34,671 nucleotides of DNA from Nitrospinaceae bacterium (GCA_029261475.1 JAJDBG010000055.1:1-34671); one strand, 5' to 3'. Positions 13,206 through 22,609 are shown, counted from the stretch's first letter. Translations and numbers: made by a program. The notes: a model not told the origin generated them from the letters alone.

Positions 13206-14330
13206 ATGATCGATAACAAAGATTTTCTGGATTCATTGTCTGCCCGCAACATCCGTTTTTTTGCAGGCGTTCCCGATTCCCTGCTGAAAGATTTCTGCGC
13301 GTATTTGACCGACCATGCGGAGCCAGAGGCTCATGTCATCACCGCCAACGAGGGGGCGGCTGTGGGACTTGGCATGGGACACCATTTTGCAACGGGCGGG
13401 ATTCCACTCGTTTACATGCAGAATTCGGGCTTGGGCAATGCGGTCAATCCTTTGTTGTCACTGGCCGATCCTGAGGTCTATGCAACACCCATGCTATTGC
13501 TAGTCGGCTGGCGCGGCGAACCGGGGGTCAAAGACGAGCCGCAACATGTCAAACAGGGAAGCGTCATGCTGGCGATGCTCGACGCGATGGACATCCCCCA
13601 CGCCATCGTCGGACCAGACGATGACTCGGCAGAACCCGCTCTCGATAAAGCCATCAAACATTTCAAAAATCGATCCGGACCTTTTGTGATAGCAGTACGT
13701 AAAGGGACTTTCCAAACTTACAAACTTGCAGACTCCACCTCAACCGAATATCCCATGACCCGTGAAGAAGCCATCGCCGAATTGCTGGAGCCGATGGCCG
13801 CCTCGGACGTGGTGGTCTCGACCACAGGCATGGCATCGCGCGAGTTATTTGAATTGCGTGTGAAACGGGGTGAAGGACACGAACGCGATTTTCTCACCGT
13901 CGGCGGCATGGGCCACGCATCGCAGATCGCACTCGGCATCGCGCAACAAGTAACAGACCGAAAAGTTTATTGCATCGACGGCGACGGAGCCGCGCTGATG
14001 CACCTGGGATCGCTTCCCATCATAGGCATCTCAGCCTGTGCGAATTTCAGGCATGTACTCATCAACAACGGCGCGCACGATTCCGTAGGCGGTCAACCCA
14101 CCGTCGGTTTTGACATTGATTATGGAAGCATCGCGCGATCTTCAAGATATAAAACTATTCTGCGAGCCGATACGAAAGAAGAACTGATCGCCCGGATGGA
14201 AGAATTCATAAGCACGCCCGGCCCTTCCCTGCTGGAGATTCGCGTCCGCAAAGGAGCGAGAAAAGATTTGGGCAGACCCACAAAAACCCCAGTAGAAAAC
14301 AAAACCGCACTCATGAAATTCCTTGCCTGA
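13206..14330 (+). CDS. aepY: Phosphonopyruvate decarboxylase (ThDP-dependent)
   Basis: Converts 3-phosphonopyruvate to phosphonoacetaldehyde and CO2, the step that pulls the unfavourable PEP mutase reaction forward in phosphonate synthesis. 374 aa, matching single-chain Ppd enzymes. The N-terminal pyrimidine domain has the activating Glu in ITANEGAAVGLGMG. The C-terminal pyrophosphate domain has the ThDP/Mg motif, from GDGAALMHLGSLP to INN, followed by NNGAHDSVGGQPT, a signature that separates Ppd from sulfopyruvate decarboxylase. No good ribosome binding site precedes the ATG. PEP mutase is missing nearby; a PhnW-type aminotransferase that would use its product lies at 21479-22609. Confidence 0.9.
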   Translation: MIDNKDFLDSLSARNIRFFAGVPDSLLKDFCAYLTDHAEPEAHVITANEGAAVGLGMGHHFATGGIPLVYMQNSGLGNAVNPLLSLADPEVYATPMLLLVGWRGEPGVKDEPQHVKQGSVMLAMLDAMDIPHAIVGPDDDSAEPALDKAIKHFKNRSGPFVIAVRKGTFQTYKLADSTSTEYPMTREEAIAELLEPMAASDVVVSTTGMASRELFELRVKRGEGHERDFLTVGGMGHASQIALGIAQQVTDRKVYCIDGDGAALMHLGSLPIIGISACANFRHVLINNGAHDSVGGQPTVGFDIDYGSIARSSRYKTILRADTKEELIARMEEFISTPGPSLLEIRVRKGARKDLGRPTKTPVENKTALMKFLA

Positions 14331-15763: not shown

Positions 15764-16312
15764 TTAGTATTTCGTTGCTTCGAGATGACTCAGATCAAAT
15801 CCTTTTTCTTTTATTTTCATTTTTAGCTTCTTTAGGGTTTCTGGGTTCATTTCCGGGGAGCGGCTCAATATCCACAGGTACTGGCGTTTGGGTTCGCTGA
15901 CTATGACGTGTTGATAGTCTTTGTCGAGGTCTACGATCCAATAATTTCCTTTGAAGGGCCAGAAGAACTGAACTTTTAATTTTGCGTTGCTCTGTGTGTC
16001 TGCTATTTCTGCTGTGCCTATGGCTTCTTTGAGTTCGCCTTGTGGTCCGCCTGTCCTGCACTGGTTGATGACTCTGATGCGGCCGTCTTTCATCTTTTCG
16101 TAAAATGCGGTTGAGGCAAAACATCCTTCTTCAAACCAGTTGGGGTACAGGGCGATCTCGTACCACTTGCCGAGATAACGCTCCAGGTCGACGTAGGGCA
16201 CGGTCTGCAATTCGGGTGATTCTCTGCTGGGTATACTGGAGCAGGCATTGAGAAGAACAATCAGCGCGCAGGCGATTTGTAATTTCAATAAATTTTTGGC
16301 GTGATGGATCAT
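15764..16312 (-). CDS. blc: Lipocalin lipoprotein (Blc-like)
   Basis: Outer-membrane lipocalin thought to bind fatty acids or lysophospholipids. From the ATG at 16312 (GGGAGAG 6 nt upstream) the protein has 182 aa. The lipoprotein signal ends in LLNAC (Cys24), the lipocalin signature is VPYVDLERYLGKWYEIALYP, and later blocks are NYWIVDLDKDYQHVIVSEP and YLWILSRSPEM, all typical of Blc. The frame extends to 16594, but that would overlap the upstream membrane protein. It is the last gene of the MerR-led run; lipocalin genes also accompany LitR-type regulators in other bacteria. Confidence 0.92.
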   Translation of the reverse strand: MIHHAKNLLKLQIACALIVLLNACSSIPSRESPELQTVPYVDLERYLGKWYEIALYPNWFEEGCFASTAFYEKMKDGRIRVINQCRTGGPQGELKEAIGTAEIADTQSNAKLKVQFFWPFKGNYWIVDLDKDYQHVIVSEPKRQYLWILSRSPEMNPETLKKLKMKIKEKGFDLSHLEATKY

Positions 16313-16359
16313 GTTTTTCTCTCCCGTGATTTTAGCTACAAGTGTTCGATCTGATTTCA

Positions 16360-16791
16360 TTATCCGACGGGTGTCACCATGCGGATCAACACCCATCCGA
16401 CGATCAGCATTTGTGCGAGGTTGATGCCTACGCTCAATCTGTGCAAGAGATTGAAAGTTTTTCCTGCCTTTGCATCGCCTTGCAGTTGCTCGTCGCGATA
16501 ACGGTTGATGCGCGGGGTCAGCCACAACCAGGCCCATAGGAAAAGCACAAACACGCCGACAAGCTGCAATGCCTCTGGGTGATTCCACAAACAAAACGCC
16601 GCCGCGAGGGTCATGCCTGCCATGGCTTGACTGTATACGGGAAAGGCTGTTCGTATGAATGGACCGGATGTCTCGGGCGGTAATTTTGTGAATACCAGCG
16701 GGGTCATGATCGCCGCAAAAAAGAACATTCCCCCTATGACCAGGGCTAATAAAAAGATTCCGCTTGTATGAAGAATTTGAACTGTATCCAT
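16360..16791 (-). CDS. DUF4149/TMEM205-like four-helix membrane protein
   Basis: 143 aa with four transmembrane segments (about residues 8-30, 50-68, 73-92 and 118-138). The motif GGMFFFAAIMTPLVFTKLPP near the N-terminus is typical of DUF4149-like proteins ('G...F......P..F..L'). Function unknown. GAGG lies 5 nt before the ATG. It follows the epimerase-SRPBCC gene by 45 bp and precedes the lipocalin by 47 bp, so co-transcription is likely. Confidence 0.75.
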   Translation of the reverse strand: MDTVQILHTSGIFLLALVIGGMFFFAAIMTPLVFTKLPPETSGPFIRTAFPVYSQAMAGMTLAAAFCLWNHPEALQLVGVFVLFLWAWLWLTPRINRYRDEQLQGDAKAGKTFNLLHRLSVGINLAQMLIVGWVLIRMVTPVG

Positions 16792-16836
16792 GACGACCTC
16801 AAGTGTTTGGGTGGGTTGGGATACGCTATTGTTGCT

Positions 16837-18204
16837 CTAGGTATGGGCAAACAATGTATCGACGGCTTTGTGGCGATATTTGAATATTTTTTCCAGATCT
16901 TTTCTGATGAATCTTCCTGCGACCAGGTCCCCTGCACTGCCGAACGGGGCTTGATATAAAATGCGGTCCTTTATCAATGTTCCGCCATTTTTATTTTCAA
17001 ACTCGTGGGTGTGATGCCAGTGACCGTAGGGTCCTTTGATCTGGATGTCGGTGAATTTGCTATCAGGTTCCCAGCCTGTGATTTCCGATTGCCAGCGTAT
17101 GGGTATGCCGTGCAGGGAAAGGCTGTAATTGATTTTTGTGCCTTCCTGCATCGTTGGCGTTGACTGCCTGAGTACTTTGAATTTTAAAAATTCGGGTGTG
17201 AGTTTTTCCAGATTCTTAGCTTCTTTAAAAAACTCAAACGTTTTTTCTACGGATTGAGGGACCCATTGTTCGAGTGATACTTCGTGGTAGTTGTGTCCGC
17301 AAACCTCTTTCAAAGCCTCTTCAAGTTGTGAGTATTGAAACTTAAATTCGGTCTCTTCTATTTTTTTTGCGCTCACTCTCTGGCTGGCGAGCAACAGCTC
17401 GGAGAGTTCACCCAACCCGAGTTTCAAAACAAATTTTGGCACTGGGAAAAGAGTCGGACGCTTCAAAACTTTTCCCAAAGTTTTTGTGAATACTTTATTC
17501 CTGATCGCATTTGGACTGACGGCATTATAGATGCCTTCCATAGAAGCGTTTTCAATCGCATGGATCATCATATTGGCAAGATCGTTTATGTGAATCCAGC
17601 TCATCCACTGCGATCCGCTCCCAAGGTTTCCACCAAGTCCCATCTTGAATGGGGACAACATGTTTCCAAGGGCACCACCATCATGCCCCAGCACCATGCC
17701 CACCCGGCAGGCCACCGTTCTCACACCAAGGTCCCTGGCTTTGATGATTTCATTCTCCCAGCTTTGGCAAACGTCTGAAAGGAAGCCTTCGCCTTTGGCG
17801 GACGTTTCATCGAGGGACTCGTCGCCCCGGTCGCCATAAAATCCAATGGCTGAGGCCGATACAAAAACTTTGGGCTTTTCATCCATTGCCGACATGGCTT
17901 CCACCAGTCGTCTGACCGACAGGACTCTCGATTGAAGAATTTCCTGCTTACGAGTCTCCGACCAGCGACCCCCGGCAATGCCTTCTCCTGCCAGGTTGAT
18001 TACGGCATCCACTCCTTTTAGCGCGTTTGAAGAAAGAGCGGTGTCTTCGAGATTCCAGCTTTGGACATCGCAATGAAACGGCAATTTAAATCTTGCGGAT
18101 TCTGGATCGCGTGTCAGAACTGAAACTTCATGACCCTTTTGACTCAAAGTTTCTATCAGTACTTTTCCAACAAACCCCGTAGCACCTGTAACCATGACTT
18201 TCAT
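16837..18204 (-). CDS. TIGR01777-family epimerase fused to a SRPBCC domain
   Basis: 455 aa, two domains. Residues 1 to about 298 form an extended SDR/epimerase of the TIGR01777 (YfcH/SulA-like) type, with MVTGATGFVGKVLIETL, INLAGEGIAGGRW, FVSASAIGFYGDRGDE and the WIHINDLANMM block. Residues from about 305 to 455 form a SRPBCC (START-like) ligand-binding domain (HEVSLEQWVPQSVEKTFEFF, then GIPIRWQSEITGWEPD). Such fusions are known, but the substrate is not. AGAAGG sits 6 nt before the ATG. It lies downstream of the CbiX-like gene and is separated from it by a triplicated 58-bp repeat. Epimerases of this group also occur in LitR regulons (established association, not proof of role). Confidence 0.88.
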   Translation of the reverse strand: MKVMVTGATGFVGKVLIETLSQKGHEVSVLTRDPESARFKLPFHCDVQSWNLEDTALSSNALKGVDAVINLAGEGIAGGRWSETRKQEILQSRVLSVRRLVEAMSAMDEKPKVFVSASAIGFYGDRGDESLDETSAKGEGFLSDVCQSWENEIIKARDLGVRTVACRVGMVLGHDGGALGNMLSPFKMGLGGNLGSGSQWMSWIHINDLANMMIHAIENASMEGIYNAVSPNAIRNKVFTKTLGKVLKRPTLFPVPKFVLKLGLGELSELLLASQRVSAKKIEETEFKFQYSQLEEALKEVCGHNYHEVSLEQWVPQSVEKTFEFFKEAKNLEKLTPEFLKFKVLRQSTPTMQEGTKINYSLSLHGIPIRWQSEITGWEPDSKFTDIQIKGPYGHWHHTHEFENKNGGTLIKDRILYQAPFGSAGDLVAGRFIRKDLEKIFKYRHKAVDTLFAHT

Positions 18205-18267
18205 ACTGGCCTTCTTTCTGTGTATTCAAACAGCCTGTGTTTTAAAACGAGTGAATCCCTTGTCTTT

Positions 18268-18440
18268 TCAAAATTTCTAACTTGTATTGCTAACGGAAGT
18301 CACATGAAAAGTCTTATTGCCCGTGTCAAAATTTCTAATTCGCATTGCCGACGGGTGTCACATGAAAAGTCTTTTTGTCCGTGTCGAAATTTTCTAATTC
18401 GCATTGCCAACGGAGGTCACTTGAAAAGTCTTGATGTGAT
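18268..18440 (-). repeat. Three 58-bp tandem repeats covering the 3' end of the CbiX-like gene
   Basis: Copies start at 18268, 18326 and 18384 on the plus strand, each beginning TC(A/G)AAATTT(T)CTAA and containing TGAAAAGTCTT. The third copy includes the last ~15 codons and stop of the CbiX-like gene; the other two lie downstream. All three keep the reverse complement of the GNAN-stop codons in recognisable form, with several substitutions, so the duplication is not recent. Confidence 0.85.
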
Positions 18441-18927
18441 CTGTCAGGAACAAAGCGAACATATCCATATTGAATGGCCATGCGTATTGAATGTTTATGT
18501 CGCTGTATTTTGCACTCAAGGCTTTCAATTCTTCCGGGATTTCATTTTCAGAATGAGACCCCCCGCGAGTGATCATCGTCGTTACCAAAACAATTTCAGA
18601 AACATTTTCACGTGCCAATTCATCGACCGCATCTTCAATCGACGGATAGCAAAATTCGTTGTAGGCCGTTTTCAATGAATACCCGTTCAACATCGCTTGC
18701 ATATGAGAAGCCAGAGTTTCCAGACCCGTTTTATAAGGATCGTTTTCTGGAGTCCTCTCCCATTTCCTAATCGTTCTATCCAGTTCCACTTCCTCCTGGC
18801 TGATCGGACTGCCCGCTCTCACTCTTGTCTTATGGACTCGCATAAATTTTTCAACAATTTCAGAAGGAATATCACGAGGCAATCCGCCGTGACCTACGAG
18901 AATGACTGCTTTATTTGAAGATTCCAT
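18394..18927 (-). CDS. CbiX-like protein (sirohydrochlorin chelatase superfamily)
   Basis: 177 aa, one chelatase-like domain. AVILVGHGGLPRDIP with His13 and VLVTTMITRGGSHSENEIP with His125 match the two His-bearing motifs of CbiX/CbiK/SirB chelatases, which insert Co or Fe into sirohydrochlorin. A longer polar insertion (about residues 28-65) between the first strand and the next helix is unlike small CbiX, so activity or substrate may differ. It lies 44 bp after the MerR gene, and linkage of a tetrapyrrole chelatase-like protein with a B12-type regulator is notable. The C-terminus (QVTSVGNAN) lies in the repeat array. Confidence 0.8.
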   Translation of the reverse strand: MESSNKAVILVGHGGLPRDIPSEIVEKFMRVHKTRVRAGSPISQEEVELDRTIRKWERTPENDPYKTGLETLASHMQAMLNGYSLKTAYNEFCYPSIEDAVDELARENVSEIVLVTTMITRGGSHSENEIPEELKALSAKYSDINIQYAWPFNMDMFALFLTDHIKTFQVTSVGNAN

Positions 18928-18971
18928 GACATCTTGATTCCTTTAATTTATTTAGAAAAATTGACGATCTC

Positions 18972-19922
18972 TTAAACTTTTAAATCTTCCTCCTGGTCGA
19001 GGTCGATCAAGAAATCGTAATATTTATCGAAGTCAGTGAGATAAGAAACCTCAGGGATACCGCAAGGACTCCCTTTCCCACCCGTGACCATAAGGGTCTT
19101 TGGACTGACTTCGCTTCTTATCTTGAAAAGTAGGCTTTCAGCCGTTGCGGGGCTGAAGGTATGAGAGATACTCATCGCTATCACTTCCGGCTTGTAATTT
19201 TTTGCCGCATTGACAATGTCTTCGAGAGGATTGTCTCTGCCCAGATAAATCACCTTGAAACGAGTCACCGAGGTGACCACAGCGCACATGAGTATCCCCA
19301 GGCTGTAGGCCTCTCCCGGCAAGGTGGCGATCAAAACCGTTGGTCCCTGTTTTCTGATATTCATTTGCCGCCACTTTTCACTGAGAAAACTCACCATACA
19401 TTCAGAAGCAAAATGCTCGTGTGAAACCGTCAGCTCACCCGTTTCCCAGCCCCTGCCCAGCCTTTCCAGCAAAGGAGCGGCAAAATTAACAACGAAATTC
19501 AAAGCACCATGACGACCCCATTGTTCATGGAATCCGCTCAGGAGAGCATCGTCATCATAACTGTGAACCGACCTGACCCAGCTCTCGATCAGCATTTCCT
19601 GTGACATCAGCTCAGCTTGCCCGGCAGACTGCGTCTCCGATTTGGCTTCTATGAAAGGTTGCAAACCTATCATCCTTTGCAACTCTTCCATGCTGGCCCT
19701 CACCACTTTGCTGGCCCGGTACCCAGACTCAAGAGCACTCGCAATGGCTCTCAGTCGAGGCACTTCTTCTCTGGGATACCTTCTATGACCCGAGGGGAGC
19801 CGCTGAGAACATGGAGATCCGTAACGTTTTTCCCACACTCTGAGCGTATGAACCCCCACCCCTGTCATGCTGGCCAGCTCGCCAATAGAGAGAAAATCTT
19901 TCATGTCAGTCACATCAGTCAT
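18972..19922 (-). CDS. MerR-family regulator with cobalamin-binding-like C-terminus (CarH/LitR type)
   Basis: From the ATG at 19922 (GGGAAG 8 nt upstream) the protein has 316 aa. Residues 10-80 are a MerR winged helix (LSIGELASMTGVGVHTLRVW followed by EKRYG). Residues 105-190 form the helical B12-capping bundle with the CarH/LitR Wx9EH motif intact (Trp159, Glu169, His170). Residues 193-316 are a Rossmann-like B12 domain. The lower cobalt ligand motif E/DxHxxG reads EAYSLG (204-209): Tyr206 replaces His. The residue after the Trp, His132 in Thermus CarH, is Glu160. Light-dependent adenosylcobalamin regulation is known for CarH; whether this protein binds cobalamin is doubtful. A TGTCTA box lies in its presumed promoter. 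Confidence 0.88.
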   Translation of the reverse strand: MTDVTDMKDFLSIGELASMTGVGVHTLRVWEKRYGSPCSQRLPSGHRRYPREEVPRLRAIASALESGYRASKVVRASMEELQRMIGLQPFIEAKSETQSAGQAELMSQEMLIESWVRSVHSYDDDALLSGFHEQWGRHGALNFVVNFAAPLLERLGRGWETGELTVSHEHFASECMVSFLSEKWRQMNIRKQGPTVLIATLPGEAYSLGILMCAVVTSVTRFKVIYLGRDNPLEDIVNAAKNYKPEVIAMSISHTFSPATAESLLFKIRSEVSPKTLMVTGGKGSPCGIPEVSYLTDFDKYYDFLIDLDQEEDLKV

Positions 19923-20046
19923 TAGCTTGTCTTCCCTTTGAAAATTTTCATACTTACAATGGATGCTTCCCTTGGAGTCTTTACTCACATTCCCAGTCAT
20001 GCCTATATTGATTCTATACTTTGATATTACCACCGCTTTAAGAACT

Positions 20047-20075
20047 AATCTAGATTTTATCTTAATATTTGTCTA
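20047..20075 (-). promoter_or_regulatory. Putative promoter of the MerR gene with an embedded TGTCTA box
   Basis: On the minus strand TAGACA (20075-20070) and TAGATT (20052-20047) are 17 bp apart. The -35-like hexamer is itself the TGTCTA box (TTTGTCTAG at 20068-20076 on plus), and a perfect palindrome AATCTAGATT overlaps the -10. This would suit autoregulation. Inference from spacing and motif. Confidence 0.45.
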
Positions 20076-20109
20076 GGTTTTTGAAGAACCTTGACTCGAA
20101 ACTCAATCT

Positions 20110-20238
20110 TCAACCCGGTCCCAAAGTGATCTCTGGTCTTAGCTCCCCGCTCATGCCCCGGTGTGCCCCGGTATAAACCGGGGCGACCACTGCCAGGCTG
20201 ATTCCGAAAAATGCAGGTTGTAAAATCTTCTTAAGCAT
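20110..20238 (-). CDS. Small ORF with a signal-peptide-like start (possible truncated gene)
   Basis: 42 codons from the ATG at 20238: MLKKILQPAFFGISLAVVAP reads like a signal peptide, followed by a short Gly-rich tail. AAGAG lies upstream. The tail spans a GC hairpin (20165-20184). It may be the remnant of an exported protein gene or a tiny secreted peptide between the His-rich gene and merR. Without homologues it stays doubtful. Confidence 0.35.
   Translation of the reverse strand: MLKKILQPAFFGISLAVVAPVYTGAHRGMSGELRPEITLGPG
20165..20184. repeat. Perfect 8-bp GC hairpin
   Basis: GCCCCGGT (20165-20172) and ACCGGGGC (20177-20184) flank an ATAA loop; a further GCCCCGGTG copy precedes it at 20155-20163. 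It has no T tract on either strand, so it is not a standard terminator. It could stabilise or attenuate the transcript from the His-rich gene towards merR. Confidence 0.5.
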
Positions 20239-20275
20239 ATCAGTACTCTTTAGAGTCACGAGTTGATTGGATGGT

Positions 20276-20971
20276 CTACATATTCTCGTGGCCATGAGGA
20301 GCCAAAGCTACATTTTGCGTATCCACATTCTCGATGACCTTGATGCCCGAAGAAGTCTTCTCGATCAAAAAAGGATGACCAGAAATTGTGGTTTGAAACT
20401 TGTTGCCAGGCTTGAAACCATACTCCCTCAAAAGGGACTGCTCGAATGCGTTGAGACCGACCAAGACATTCTTTTCATTTTTAAGAATTCCATTAACGAT
20501 CTTTGCTTGTGTTTTGAGACCAAAGGTCCACTCATAAGGAAGATGCCCATGATCATGCCCTGCATGAGATTTGTGATTCATGGAAATCTTAGCAGGCATT
20601 TGAACCTTCTTAATAGGAACCGTATCCGTGTAAGACACCTTTCCAAATCGGCTGGCATCAACAATCTTCATTCCCGCAGATGTTCGTTCCACCAGAAAGT
20701 TGATTCCATACATCTCCGTATTGAACTTATTGCCAACGCGAATGTCGTAATGCGCCAGTTTTTTTTGCTCAAAAGCTTTCAAACCGATCAAAGCAGTTGG
20801 ATCAACCGAGTTTATCTTCTTATCAATTTTGGCTTGAAGATTATCAGACAATGCCCATTTGTATGAAACCGTGGAATGATCGTGGTCCGAATGAGCCATA
20901 GCGACGCTCGAAGTTAAAGAGATTGTTGCTGTGATTGCGATTGCGTTTAAGATGCTTGTTTTTGTTTTCAT
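20276..20971 (-). CDS. His-rich exported protein with two tandem repeat domains
   Basis: 231 aa, family not recognised. The signal peptide is cleaved after AMA (about residue 26). Two ~69-residue repeats follow, at about 37-105 and 146-214. Shared positions include Y-x-W at the start, LIGLKAFEQ versus LVGLNAFEQ, VGNKFNT versus PGNKFQT, and FLVERTSAGMKIVD versus FLIEKTSSGIKVIE. His clusters flank the repeats: 27/30/32, then 133/136/139/141/143, then 226/228, as in HSDHDH and HAGHDHGH. Such clusters often bind Zn, Ni, Cu or Co, so a periplasmic metal-binding or sensing role is inferred. AAAGGGG precedes the ATG. Its upstream region carries a cluster of TGTCTA boxes. Confidence 0.8.
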   Translation of the reverse strand: MKTKTSILNAIAITATISLTSSVAMAHSDHDHSTVSYKWALSDNLQAKIDKKINSVDPTALIGLKAFEQKKLAHYDIRVGNKFNTEMYGINFLVERTSAGMKIVDASRFGKVSYTDTVPIKKVQMPAKISMNHKSHAGHDHGHLPYEWTFGLKTQAKIVNGILKNEKNVLVGLNAFEQSLLREYGFKPGNKFQTTISGHPFLIEKTSSGIKVIENVDTQNVALAPHGHENM

Positions 20972-21035
20972 GGTCAGTCCCCTTTTTATACAATTCTTAT
21001 TTGTTTGTCTAAGTTATTAATTAATCTATTTACAT

Positions 21036-21064
21036 AATTTAGACAATAAACTAGTTTTTGTCAA
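21036..21064 (-). promoter_or_regulatory. Putative promoter of the His-rich gene
   Basis: Consensus TTGACA (21064-21059) and TAAATT (21041-21036) are 17 bp apart on the minus strand, about 65 bp before the ATG. An inverted TGTCTA box overlaps the -10 and others lie just up- and downstream, an arrangement expected for repression. Confidence 0.5.
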
Positions 21065-21420
21065 CATAATATTTAAAAAATACTAACTATTTGTCTAGTT
21101 ATAAGCCTAAACTATATAAAATAAAGGATAAAAAATTCCTAAAAAACTGCTTGAATGGGTAAATTGGGAAGGTATTTTTGGGGGATGGGGGTAAATTTCT
21201 AGGTTTCTGTCTAGTAAATTTCGTATATAGTCCCAGGCGGACTCTGTCTAAGTATAGTAATCTATAATAGTATATAGATATGAAGGCTTTTTCTGGTTTT
21301 GGGGAAATCCCTATATATTCAGCGCATGACGGCCTTCAGTCAGGATCAAGCTTTGCAACTAACTTCTGCCCTCTGAATTGACTTCTCATGCAAGGCACCC
21401 CAACTTTACCCAAATTTTAA

Positions 21421-21478: not shown

Positions 21479-22609
21479 TTAGCGATACAGTTGTTGGTCG
21501 ATGCCCATTTCTTCGAGAGTCGTTTTCAAGGCATCCACAAATTCGACCATGTCCTGTTTCCTTAAATCACCTATCACAGCGAGCCGAAAGGTTTTTGTAT
21601 TCGCTATTTTTCCAGGGTAGATGGTGAAGCCTTTTGCGTACAATCGATCGTGCAATGTATCAAAATCGAAATCGGGATGCGTGGGTTCTCTAACGGAGAG
21701 GAGTATCTTTGACTCGTACTCGGGCTTAAGAAGAAACTGGAAACCGAGGTCGGAAAGTCCTTTATATAATGTTTCCCAATTTTCGCTGTAGCGGGCGCGG
21801 CGCTTTTCGGCACCTTCTTCAAAGTATTCTTTGACCGCTTGTTGCAATGCATAAACGATTTGAACAGGCGCAGTGAAAGTCATCTGCCCGGTACGTTTCA
21901 TGTATGCGTATTGCTCGCAAAGATCGAGGTAATACGATCTGGATGGAAATTTCGCGGCACTTTCCAGTGCTGAAATTTTTGCGATCACAAAACTGATTCC
22001 TGCCATGCCCTGAATACACTTATTGGAAGTCGAAAGCATATAATCAATGTTCAGCTTTTCGATTTCCATGGGAATCGCGGCGTAGCTGGATATCGCATCC
22101 ACGATGAAGGTCTTGCCGAAACGTCGCGCGATCTCCCCTATTTCCTTCACAGGGTTCAACAATCCGGTTGTGGTCTCGTGATGCACCATAGCGATGCAGT
22201 CGATGGCATTGTTCTCGTCAGAGCTGAGTTTTTTTTCGAGAACCTCCAGAGAGGGGGGCGCATCCCAATCAAAATTCAACTCCTCGACTTCGATCCCGTA
22301 AGCCTTGGCGATGGACACCAGCCTTGTCCCATAGGCTCCGTTGTTGACGATCAATATTTTCTTGCCCGGTGGAACAACCGAGTTGATGCAAGCATCCATG
22401 ACGGCGGTTCCCGATCCCGCAAACATCACGCAATCGTAGTCCTTGCCTTGATGGACAACTTTCACGAGATCCCTGCGCAAACTTTCCATGACTTCTTGAA
22501 ATTCTTTTTCGCGAGGGCAAATATCTTCCACAACCAAAGCATCCTTAACGCCTTGCGAGGTCGTTCCCGGACCGGGATTCAATAAAATTTTTCGGGGAGT
22601 GATTTTCAT
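21479..22609 (-). CDS. 2-aminoethylphosphonate aminotransferase (PhnW-type)
   Basis: PLP enzyme, 376 aa, fold type I class V. The N-terminus ILLNPGPGTTSQGVKDAL with VVEDICPREKEF matches aminotransferases of phosphonate biosynthesis gene sets. AGSGTAVMDACI and NNGAYGTR follow, then the PLP Asp171 (VDAISSY) and Schiff-base Lys197 in STSNKCIQG. PhnW interconverts 2-aminoethylphosphonate plus pyruvate and phosphonoacetaldehyde plus alanine. With a phosphonopyruvate decarboxylase at 13206 making the aldehyde, the biosynthetic direction is more likely (inference). It lies about 90 bp after the radical SAM gene on the same strand. An alanine-glyoxylate or related aminotransferase is the alternative. 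Confidence 0.85.
   Translation of the reverse strand: MKITPRKILLNPGPGTTSQGVKDALVVEDICPREKEFQEVMESLRRDLVKVVHQGKDYDCVMFAGSGTAVMDACINSVVPPGKKILIVNNGAYGTRLVSIAKAYGIEVEELNFDWDAPPSLEVLEKKLSSDENNAIDCIAMVHHETTTGLLNPVKEIGEIARRFGKTFIVDAISSYAAIPMEIEKLNIDYMLSTSNKCIQGMAGISFVIAKISALESAAKFPSRSYYLDLCEQYAYMKRTGQMTFTAPVQIVYALQQAVKEYFEEGAEKRRARYSENWETLYKGLSDLGFQFLLKPEYESKILLSVREPTHPDFDFDTLHDRLYAKGFTIYPGKIANTKTFRLAVIGDLRKQDMVEFVDALKTTLEEMGIDQQLYR

Follow-up and report, generated by a model that had tools for sequence, protein, structure and literature searches.

Our analysis of a 34,671-base contig from a Nitrospinaceae bacterium (GCA_029261475.1, JAJDBG010000055.1; the whole stretch is called the window here; the closest named relatives of its source genome, which is 87% complete, belong to Nitrospinota/Nitrospinaceae) concerns six genes at positions 15764-20971, among them a relative of the cobalamin-binding regulators LitR and CarH. 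All six lie on the minus strand and were judged real, and Pfam and NCBIfam confirmed the families that an initial annotation, made from the sequence alone, had assigned in this run. Read along the minus strand, the genes are as follows.

20276-20971, minus strand: HIS, a secreted protein with two copies of a domain of about 80 amino acids and a His motif before each; order-specific, without a Pfam or NCBIfam match
18972-19922, minus strand: MerR-type regulator with helix-turn-helix (HTH), four-helix-bundle and Rossmann cobalamin-binding domains, LitR/CarH lineage (profiles, AlphaFold model)
18394-18927, minus strand: CbiX-like small chelatase with an extra N-terminal segment (Pfam; H13 and H125 invariant)
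16837-18204, minus strand: TIGR01777 (YfcH/ThyD-like) NAD(P)-binding domain fused to an SRPBCC-like domain (Pfam, NCBIfam)
16360-16791, minus strand: DUF4149 membrane protein (Pfam)
15764-16312, minus strand: Blc-type outer-membrane lipocalin (Pfam, NCBIfam)

Pfam matches support the lipocalin (PF08212, 4.5e-52), the DUF4149 protein (5.6e-12) and the chelatase (CbiX, 6e-14). The fusion protein matches NCBIfam TIGR01777 at 4e-106 together with the Pfam epimerase and DUF1731 families, its SRPBCC/Polyketide_cyc tail giving a weak, sub-threshold Pfam match. The regulator is best started at ATG 19922 in preference to GTG 20033, and the lipocalin start was placed at ATG 16312. Gaps of 353 base pairs (bp) between HIS and the regulator, 44 bp between regulator and chelatase, 189 bp between chelatase and TIGR01777 gene, and then 45 and 47 bp separate the genes.

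By sequence and modelled fold, both of which point to CarH, the regulator is of LitR/CarH descent. Pfam recognizes its MerR and both B12-binding domains (PF02310 is matched and a Rossmann fold modelled), the NCBIfam CarH model hits it at 1.8e-33, under the equivalog cut-off, and the AlphaFold model (predicted local distance difference test, pLDDT, 86.6) finds its best fold match in T. thermophilus CarH (5c8e, E 6e-16). Light-responsive cobalamin domains share a four-part signature of GxxW, EH, GxxH and GxxxP (PMC11796333), which is present in its entirety in 31 of 40 members of the regulator family. The window's protein has three of the four elements, keeping GxxW and EH in the arrangement Wx9EH (G156, W159, E169, H170) as well as GxxxP (G228, P232); the His of GxxH is missing.

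19305-19307, minus strand: TAC codon encoding Tyr206, which aligns with the cobalt-ligating His177 of CarH (family alignment and tree)

This position is occupied by His in 33 of the 40 members, by Tyr in the window's protein and five close relatives, and by Gln in one. The six Tyr sequences group as one clade (100/99 support) that is nested within His-bearing proteins; the pattern looks as if a B12-type ancestor had lost the ligand once. Because the cobalt His is lost in this clade, the cofactor and input of its regulators are uncertain, and they may employ base-on cobalamin, another cofactor or a partner on which they depend.

Roughly one in three of 100 relatives has a homologue of the regulator, and 40 regulator loci were fetched and their genes clustered. 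The core across these loci is HIS-MerR-chelatase, with the TIGR01777, DUF4149 and lipocalin genes often next; the set is conserved within the same family and, less strictly, in the order's other families (Nitrospinota), gene order and membership differing between genera. A profile search recovered 37 HIS genes in 27 of 101 genomes, none beyond the order, and 33 of them lie directly upstream of a MerR-B12 regulator. Among 64 genomes of the order, 25 carry both HIS and MerR, 7 MerR only, 2 HIS only and 30 neither (Fisher p 4e-9, kinship not corrected). The initial annotation had proposed a LitR/CarH-derived regulon with a new gene set, a proposal that it tied to conservation of the linkage in relatives; the linkage is conserved and the proposal stands, and no description of the gene set was found in the literature searched.

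Upstream of HIS, a promoter and putative operator can be delineated, with site sequences read on the minus strand.

21006-21097, minus strand: HIS promoter and putative operator (motif positions and enrichment)
21092-21097, minus strand: TAGACA
21059-21064, minus strand: -35 element TTGACA
21040-21045, minus strand: TGTCTA running into a putative -10 element (TAAATT, 21036-21041)
21006-21011, minus strand: TAGACA
21208-21213 and 21245-21250, no strand assigned: two further TGTCTA half-sites upstream of the promoter (motif positions within 21208-21250)
20069-20079, plus strand: half-site TTGTCTAGGTT between HIS and the regulator gene (sequence motif)

In most loci, HIS is likewise preceded by TTGACA, 12-13 bases and then TGTCTA or a close variant entering the likely -10, and additional TGTCTA or TGTATA half-sites stand on both sides of this core. 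Across 30 HIS promoters, 51 TGTCTA sites fall within 150 bp, against a mean of 2.7 and a maximum of 8 after dinucleotide shuffling. This corresponds to 1.70 per 150-bp promoter versus 0.046 in 521 control upstream regions, and at least two sites occur in 17 of the 30 HIS promoters versus 2 of the 521 controls. Given the position of the sites and the analogous arrangement in LitR and CarH systems (PMC9758184, PMC9304148), the MerR protein would be expected to bind them. One HIS copy unlinked to MerR (locus L177) has a TGTCTA array upstream and a TIGR01777 gene downstream, which is consistent with action in trans; another (L176) has a small secreted gene and a lipocalin gene downstream. The exact palindrome TAGACA-N13-TGTCTA, tried as a genome-wide operator, gave zero matches in the 47 genomes searched and was too strict. 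In the window's own genome, TTGACA-N13-TGTCTA occurs at the HIS promoter and at one site before a response regulator, probably by chance, and no wider regulon was found with it; ahead of the relatives' photolyase genes, no TGTCTA site was convincing.

The HIS protein begins with a signal-peptide-like segment, followed by two copies of one domain with a His motif ahead of each (SDHDHS and HAGHDHGH). The internal duplication seen by the initial annotation is genuine (local score 175 versus a shuffle maximum of 43); its description of the protein as His-rich was generous for 12 His in 231 residues, most of which lie in an SxHDHS and an HxGHDH motif. In the second motif, H136, H139 and H141 do not vary among 32 homologues. 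Pfam and NCBIfam gave no family above cut-off, and a fold search with the AlphaFold model, of moderate quality (pLDDT 75.6), returned no significant PDB match. HIS is absent from nine Nitrospira genomes searched.

The HIS alignment was insufficiently conserved as a query for named genomes, and the chelatase was used in its place. This protein shares with the CbiX/SirB/CfbA small chelatases the core fold, as judged by sequence, and both active-site His of the CbiX domain, H13 and H125, which are invariant. It differs from them in its extra N-terminal segment, a YNEFCxP motif and scores far under the NCBIfam cut-offs (40.6 bits against 120). Metal insertion into a tetrapyrrole is its predicted activity. 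A scan of 84,980 species confirmed 242 places, of which the best 80, those with taxon labels, are assigned to Nitrospinota or Nitrospirota bar three, one 'Chloroflexi' and two 'Nitrosospira', probably mislabelled records. Of 118 genomes sampled evenly from the Nitrospira phylum, 25 encode the chelatase. There the subfamily stands beside photolyase, the tRNA 4-thiouridine (s4U) desulfidase RudS, TIGR01777, DUF4149 and sometimes LitR; four Nitrospira-type loci are ordered RudS-LitR-chelatase, with a LitR that retains the cobalt His. Of 77 chelatase loci analysed, 43 have RudS within 6.5 kb, 34 TIGR01777, 22 photolyase and 22 a LitR-type MerR.

Similar partners appear near the regulators of Nitrospinota. 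In L069, HIS-HIS-MerR is immediately preceded by a photolyase gene; L034, L038, L040 and L044 have RudS oriented divergently from HIS; and genes for a desaturase, an amine-oxidase-type flavin adenine dinucleotide (FAD) protein, DUF1365 and cyclopropane-fatty-acid (CFA) synthase follow MerR in L051 and L067. RudS is often found in light-responsive operons (PMC11417400), in Vibrio cholerae a MerR protein beside phr mediates the blue-light response (PMC5241685), and nitrite oxidation is strongly photoinhibited (PMC9797979).

Taken together, we regard a LitR/CarH-type photo-oxidative-stress operon of Nitrospinota as the best explanation, and a reasonably probable one: a CarH/LitR relative heads a conserved operon that probably shields these marine nitrite oxidizers from light damage. 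In the mechanism that we infer, the regulator would bind TGTCTA half-sites overlapping the promoter of its own transcription unit, comprising HIS-MerR-chelatase with TIGR01777-SRPBCC, DUF4149 and lipocalin genes downstream, and would repress it in the dark. Light would release repression, in most family members directly via adenosylcobalamin. The products would then protect the envelope lipids and tetrapyrrole pool of a haem-rich nitrite oxidizer, the lipocalin carrying or repairing membrane lipids, the chelatase metallating or handling free tetrapyrroles that would otherwise sensitize the cell, and HIS binding metal or haem-type ligands in the periplasm.

Several observations weigh against this explanation. 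The lower axial His of D/ExHxxG is replaced by Tyr206 in the window's regulator. Like photolyase-RudS light-operon clusters, several relatives have RudS divergent from HIS, and in Nitrospira RudS is followed by the chelatase; unlike them, the window's genome has its RudS gene unlinked to the operon, with only two TGTATA-type sites and no TGTCTA upstream, and photolyase was not found in this genome, at 87% completeness, or in two congeners at 97%. The TGTCTA array is also not enriched in Nitrospira promoters or clusters. Since the operator was found neither at RudS of this genome nor in Nitrospira, the regulon shown here is the operon itself.

What does the regulator sense? The initial annotation had favoured a metal or porphyrin cue acting on an envelope stress system, with HIS and the chelatase reporting the stress. 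The conserved HxGHDH motif of HIS and the presence of a chelatase in the operon fit such a cue, and replacing the cobalt ligand with Tyr would permit a new ligand. We nevertheless consider it improbable, and favour light or photo-oxidative control, because the relatives' neighbours are the photoprotective photolyase, RudS, CFA synthase/DUF1365 and, in Nitrospira, LitR; most regulators moreover carry the full light signature, the C-terminal domain is of CarH type and not that of a metal-binding MerR, and no metal transporter or efflux gene was recognized among recurrent neighbours of the clustered loci. The loss of the cobalt ligand leaves a changed cue possible in the window's own clade. The lipocalin, DUF4149 and SRPBCC proteins could plausibly have the envelope or lipid role proposed alongside the metal or porphyrin drive, even as that drive lacks support. 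Marginally better placed, though still unlikely, is a system for cobamide or tetrapyrrole status, in which the regulator would sense B12 instead of light and the CbiX-like protein would be a cobalt or other tetrapyrrole chelatase serving salvage in B12-auxotrophic nitrite oxidizers. The B12-binding domains and the catalytic His of the chelatase suit this idea, as does the B12 auxotrophy of Nitrospira marina and several marine Nitrospinae (PMC8115632). It is at odds with the company that the chelatase keeps in Nitrospira (photolyase and RudS), with the lost cobalt ligand, and with two negative results: no B12 synthesis gene was recognized among the recurrent neighbours, and the window has no Rfam match and hence no recognizable cobalamin riboswitch.

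A stronger contender, short of even odds, is a variant of the photo-oxidative explanation for the window's clade, with which its probability overlaps. Here the regulator would be B12-independent, like Myxococcus CarA or the class II LitR of Pseudomonas, and be relieved by a partner protein or by oxidative damage. Precedents exist in CarA, a B12-independent CarH paralogue (PMC9304148), and in class II LitR, which acts through a LOV partner (PMC9758184), and Tyr206 sits in a fully supported clade that has retained the DNA-binding half, the operator array and the order of the genes. On the other side, GxxW, EH and GxxxP, which make adenosyl-side and corrin contacts, have been retained, which would be expected of a protein that still binds cobalamin, and no partner protein was identified: profile scans of window open reading frames (ORFs) around the operon revealed no LOV protein, the whole genome not having been searched for LOV. 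We tentatively entertain a further possibility, that the clade, which traded the cobalt-binding His for Tyr but otherwise kept its pocket, operator array and operon, senses light or another cue via a new cofactor arrangement and controls a photoprotection module of nitrite oxidizers; the module would include a new periplasmic family and the chelatase subfamily that Nitrospira also has. That the genes are chance neighbours under independent regulation, as the 353- and 189-bp gaps and the variation in order and membership might hint, is very improbable and contradicted by the conserved linkage, the co-occurrence statistics and the TGTCTA enrichment.

How does the system compare with those already described? 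Class I CarH/LitR proteins, B12-dependent repressors that act as photoreceptors, share its MerR HTH, four-helix-bundle and Rossmann cobalamin domains with Wx9EH, and an operator array overlapping the promoter, a putative one here. They differ in having the lower axial His where the window's regulator has Tyr, and in the carotenoid genes that the window's cluster lacks; in T. thermophilus CarH, the His after the Trp is the light-state ligand, whereas the window's protein has Glu there. LitR sites are of the TGTACA type (PMC9758184), unlike TGTCTA. Class II LitR of Pseudomonas (PplR/PmlR with phrB, ufaM, short-chain dehydrogenase/reductase (SDR) and FAD oxidoreductase genes) controls light genes by repression (PMC9758184) and, like the window's regulator, is a LitR-lineage MerR near lipid-modifying genes; relatives of the window add photolyase, RudS, CFA-like, amine-oxidase-type and SDR genes near MerR. 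In contrast to the window's regulator, class II LitR retains just the four-helix bundle and has no Rossmann domain; its LOV partner is a short photoreceptor encoded close by. Neither the HIS family nor the CbiX-like subfamily is among the Pseudomonas class II genes named in PMC9758184.

The surroundings of the operon offer further observations. It is flanked by phosphonopyruvate decarboxylase and 2-aminoethylphosphonate aminotransferase genes (13206-14330 and 21479-22609; NCBIfam), and clustered homologues also flank the operon in a congener (L033); in this genus, a region for phosphonate synthesis may therefore surround the operon. A tandem repeat of period 58 (18268-18432, 2.8 copies, 85% matches) lies across the chelatase gene's 3' end and the gap that separates it from the TIGR01777 gene. 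Between HIS and MerR lies a short ORF (20110-20295) with a signal-peptide-like start, where relatives have a small secreted gene; a remnant of the latter was sought in the 353-bp gap, and the similarity was marginal and is not claimed. In 17 loci of the order, a small secreted family without a Pfam match follows the chelatase (e.g., L048:5725-6231), and a protein of about 100 residues with a DUF2256-like CxxC zinc motif (sub-threshold) is encoded near MerR at L040:7755-8072 and in 11 other loci. Five genomes (G046, G048, G014, G051 and G057) have a second, more distant LitR-type MerR at most 2 kb from RudS, which suggests two parallel LitR circuits in some Nitrospinota. PAS-domain-like proteins encoded divergently from and adjoining HIS-MerR (L072:11483-12604 and L051:11581-12096) are possible sensory partners.

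Light sensing and survival in nitrite oxidizers become directly testable with a conserved candidate regulon that offers a defined putative operator, a new family of secreted proteins and a chelatase common to Nitrospinota and Nitrospira. A His-to-Tyr substitution that arose naturally in a CarH-type pocket would, in addition, show how a B12 photoreceptor can alter its use of cofactor.

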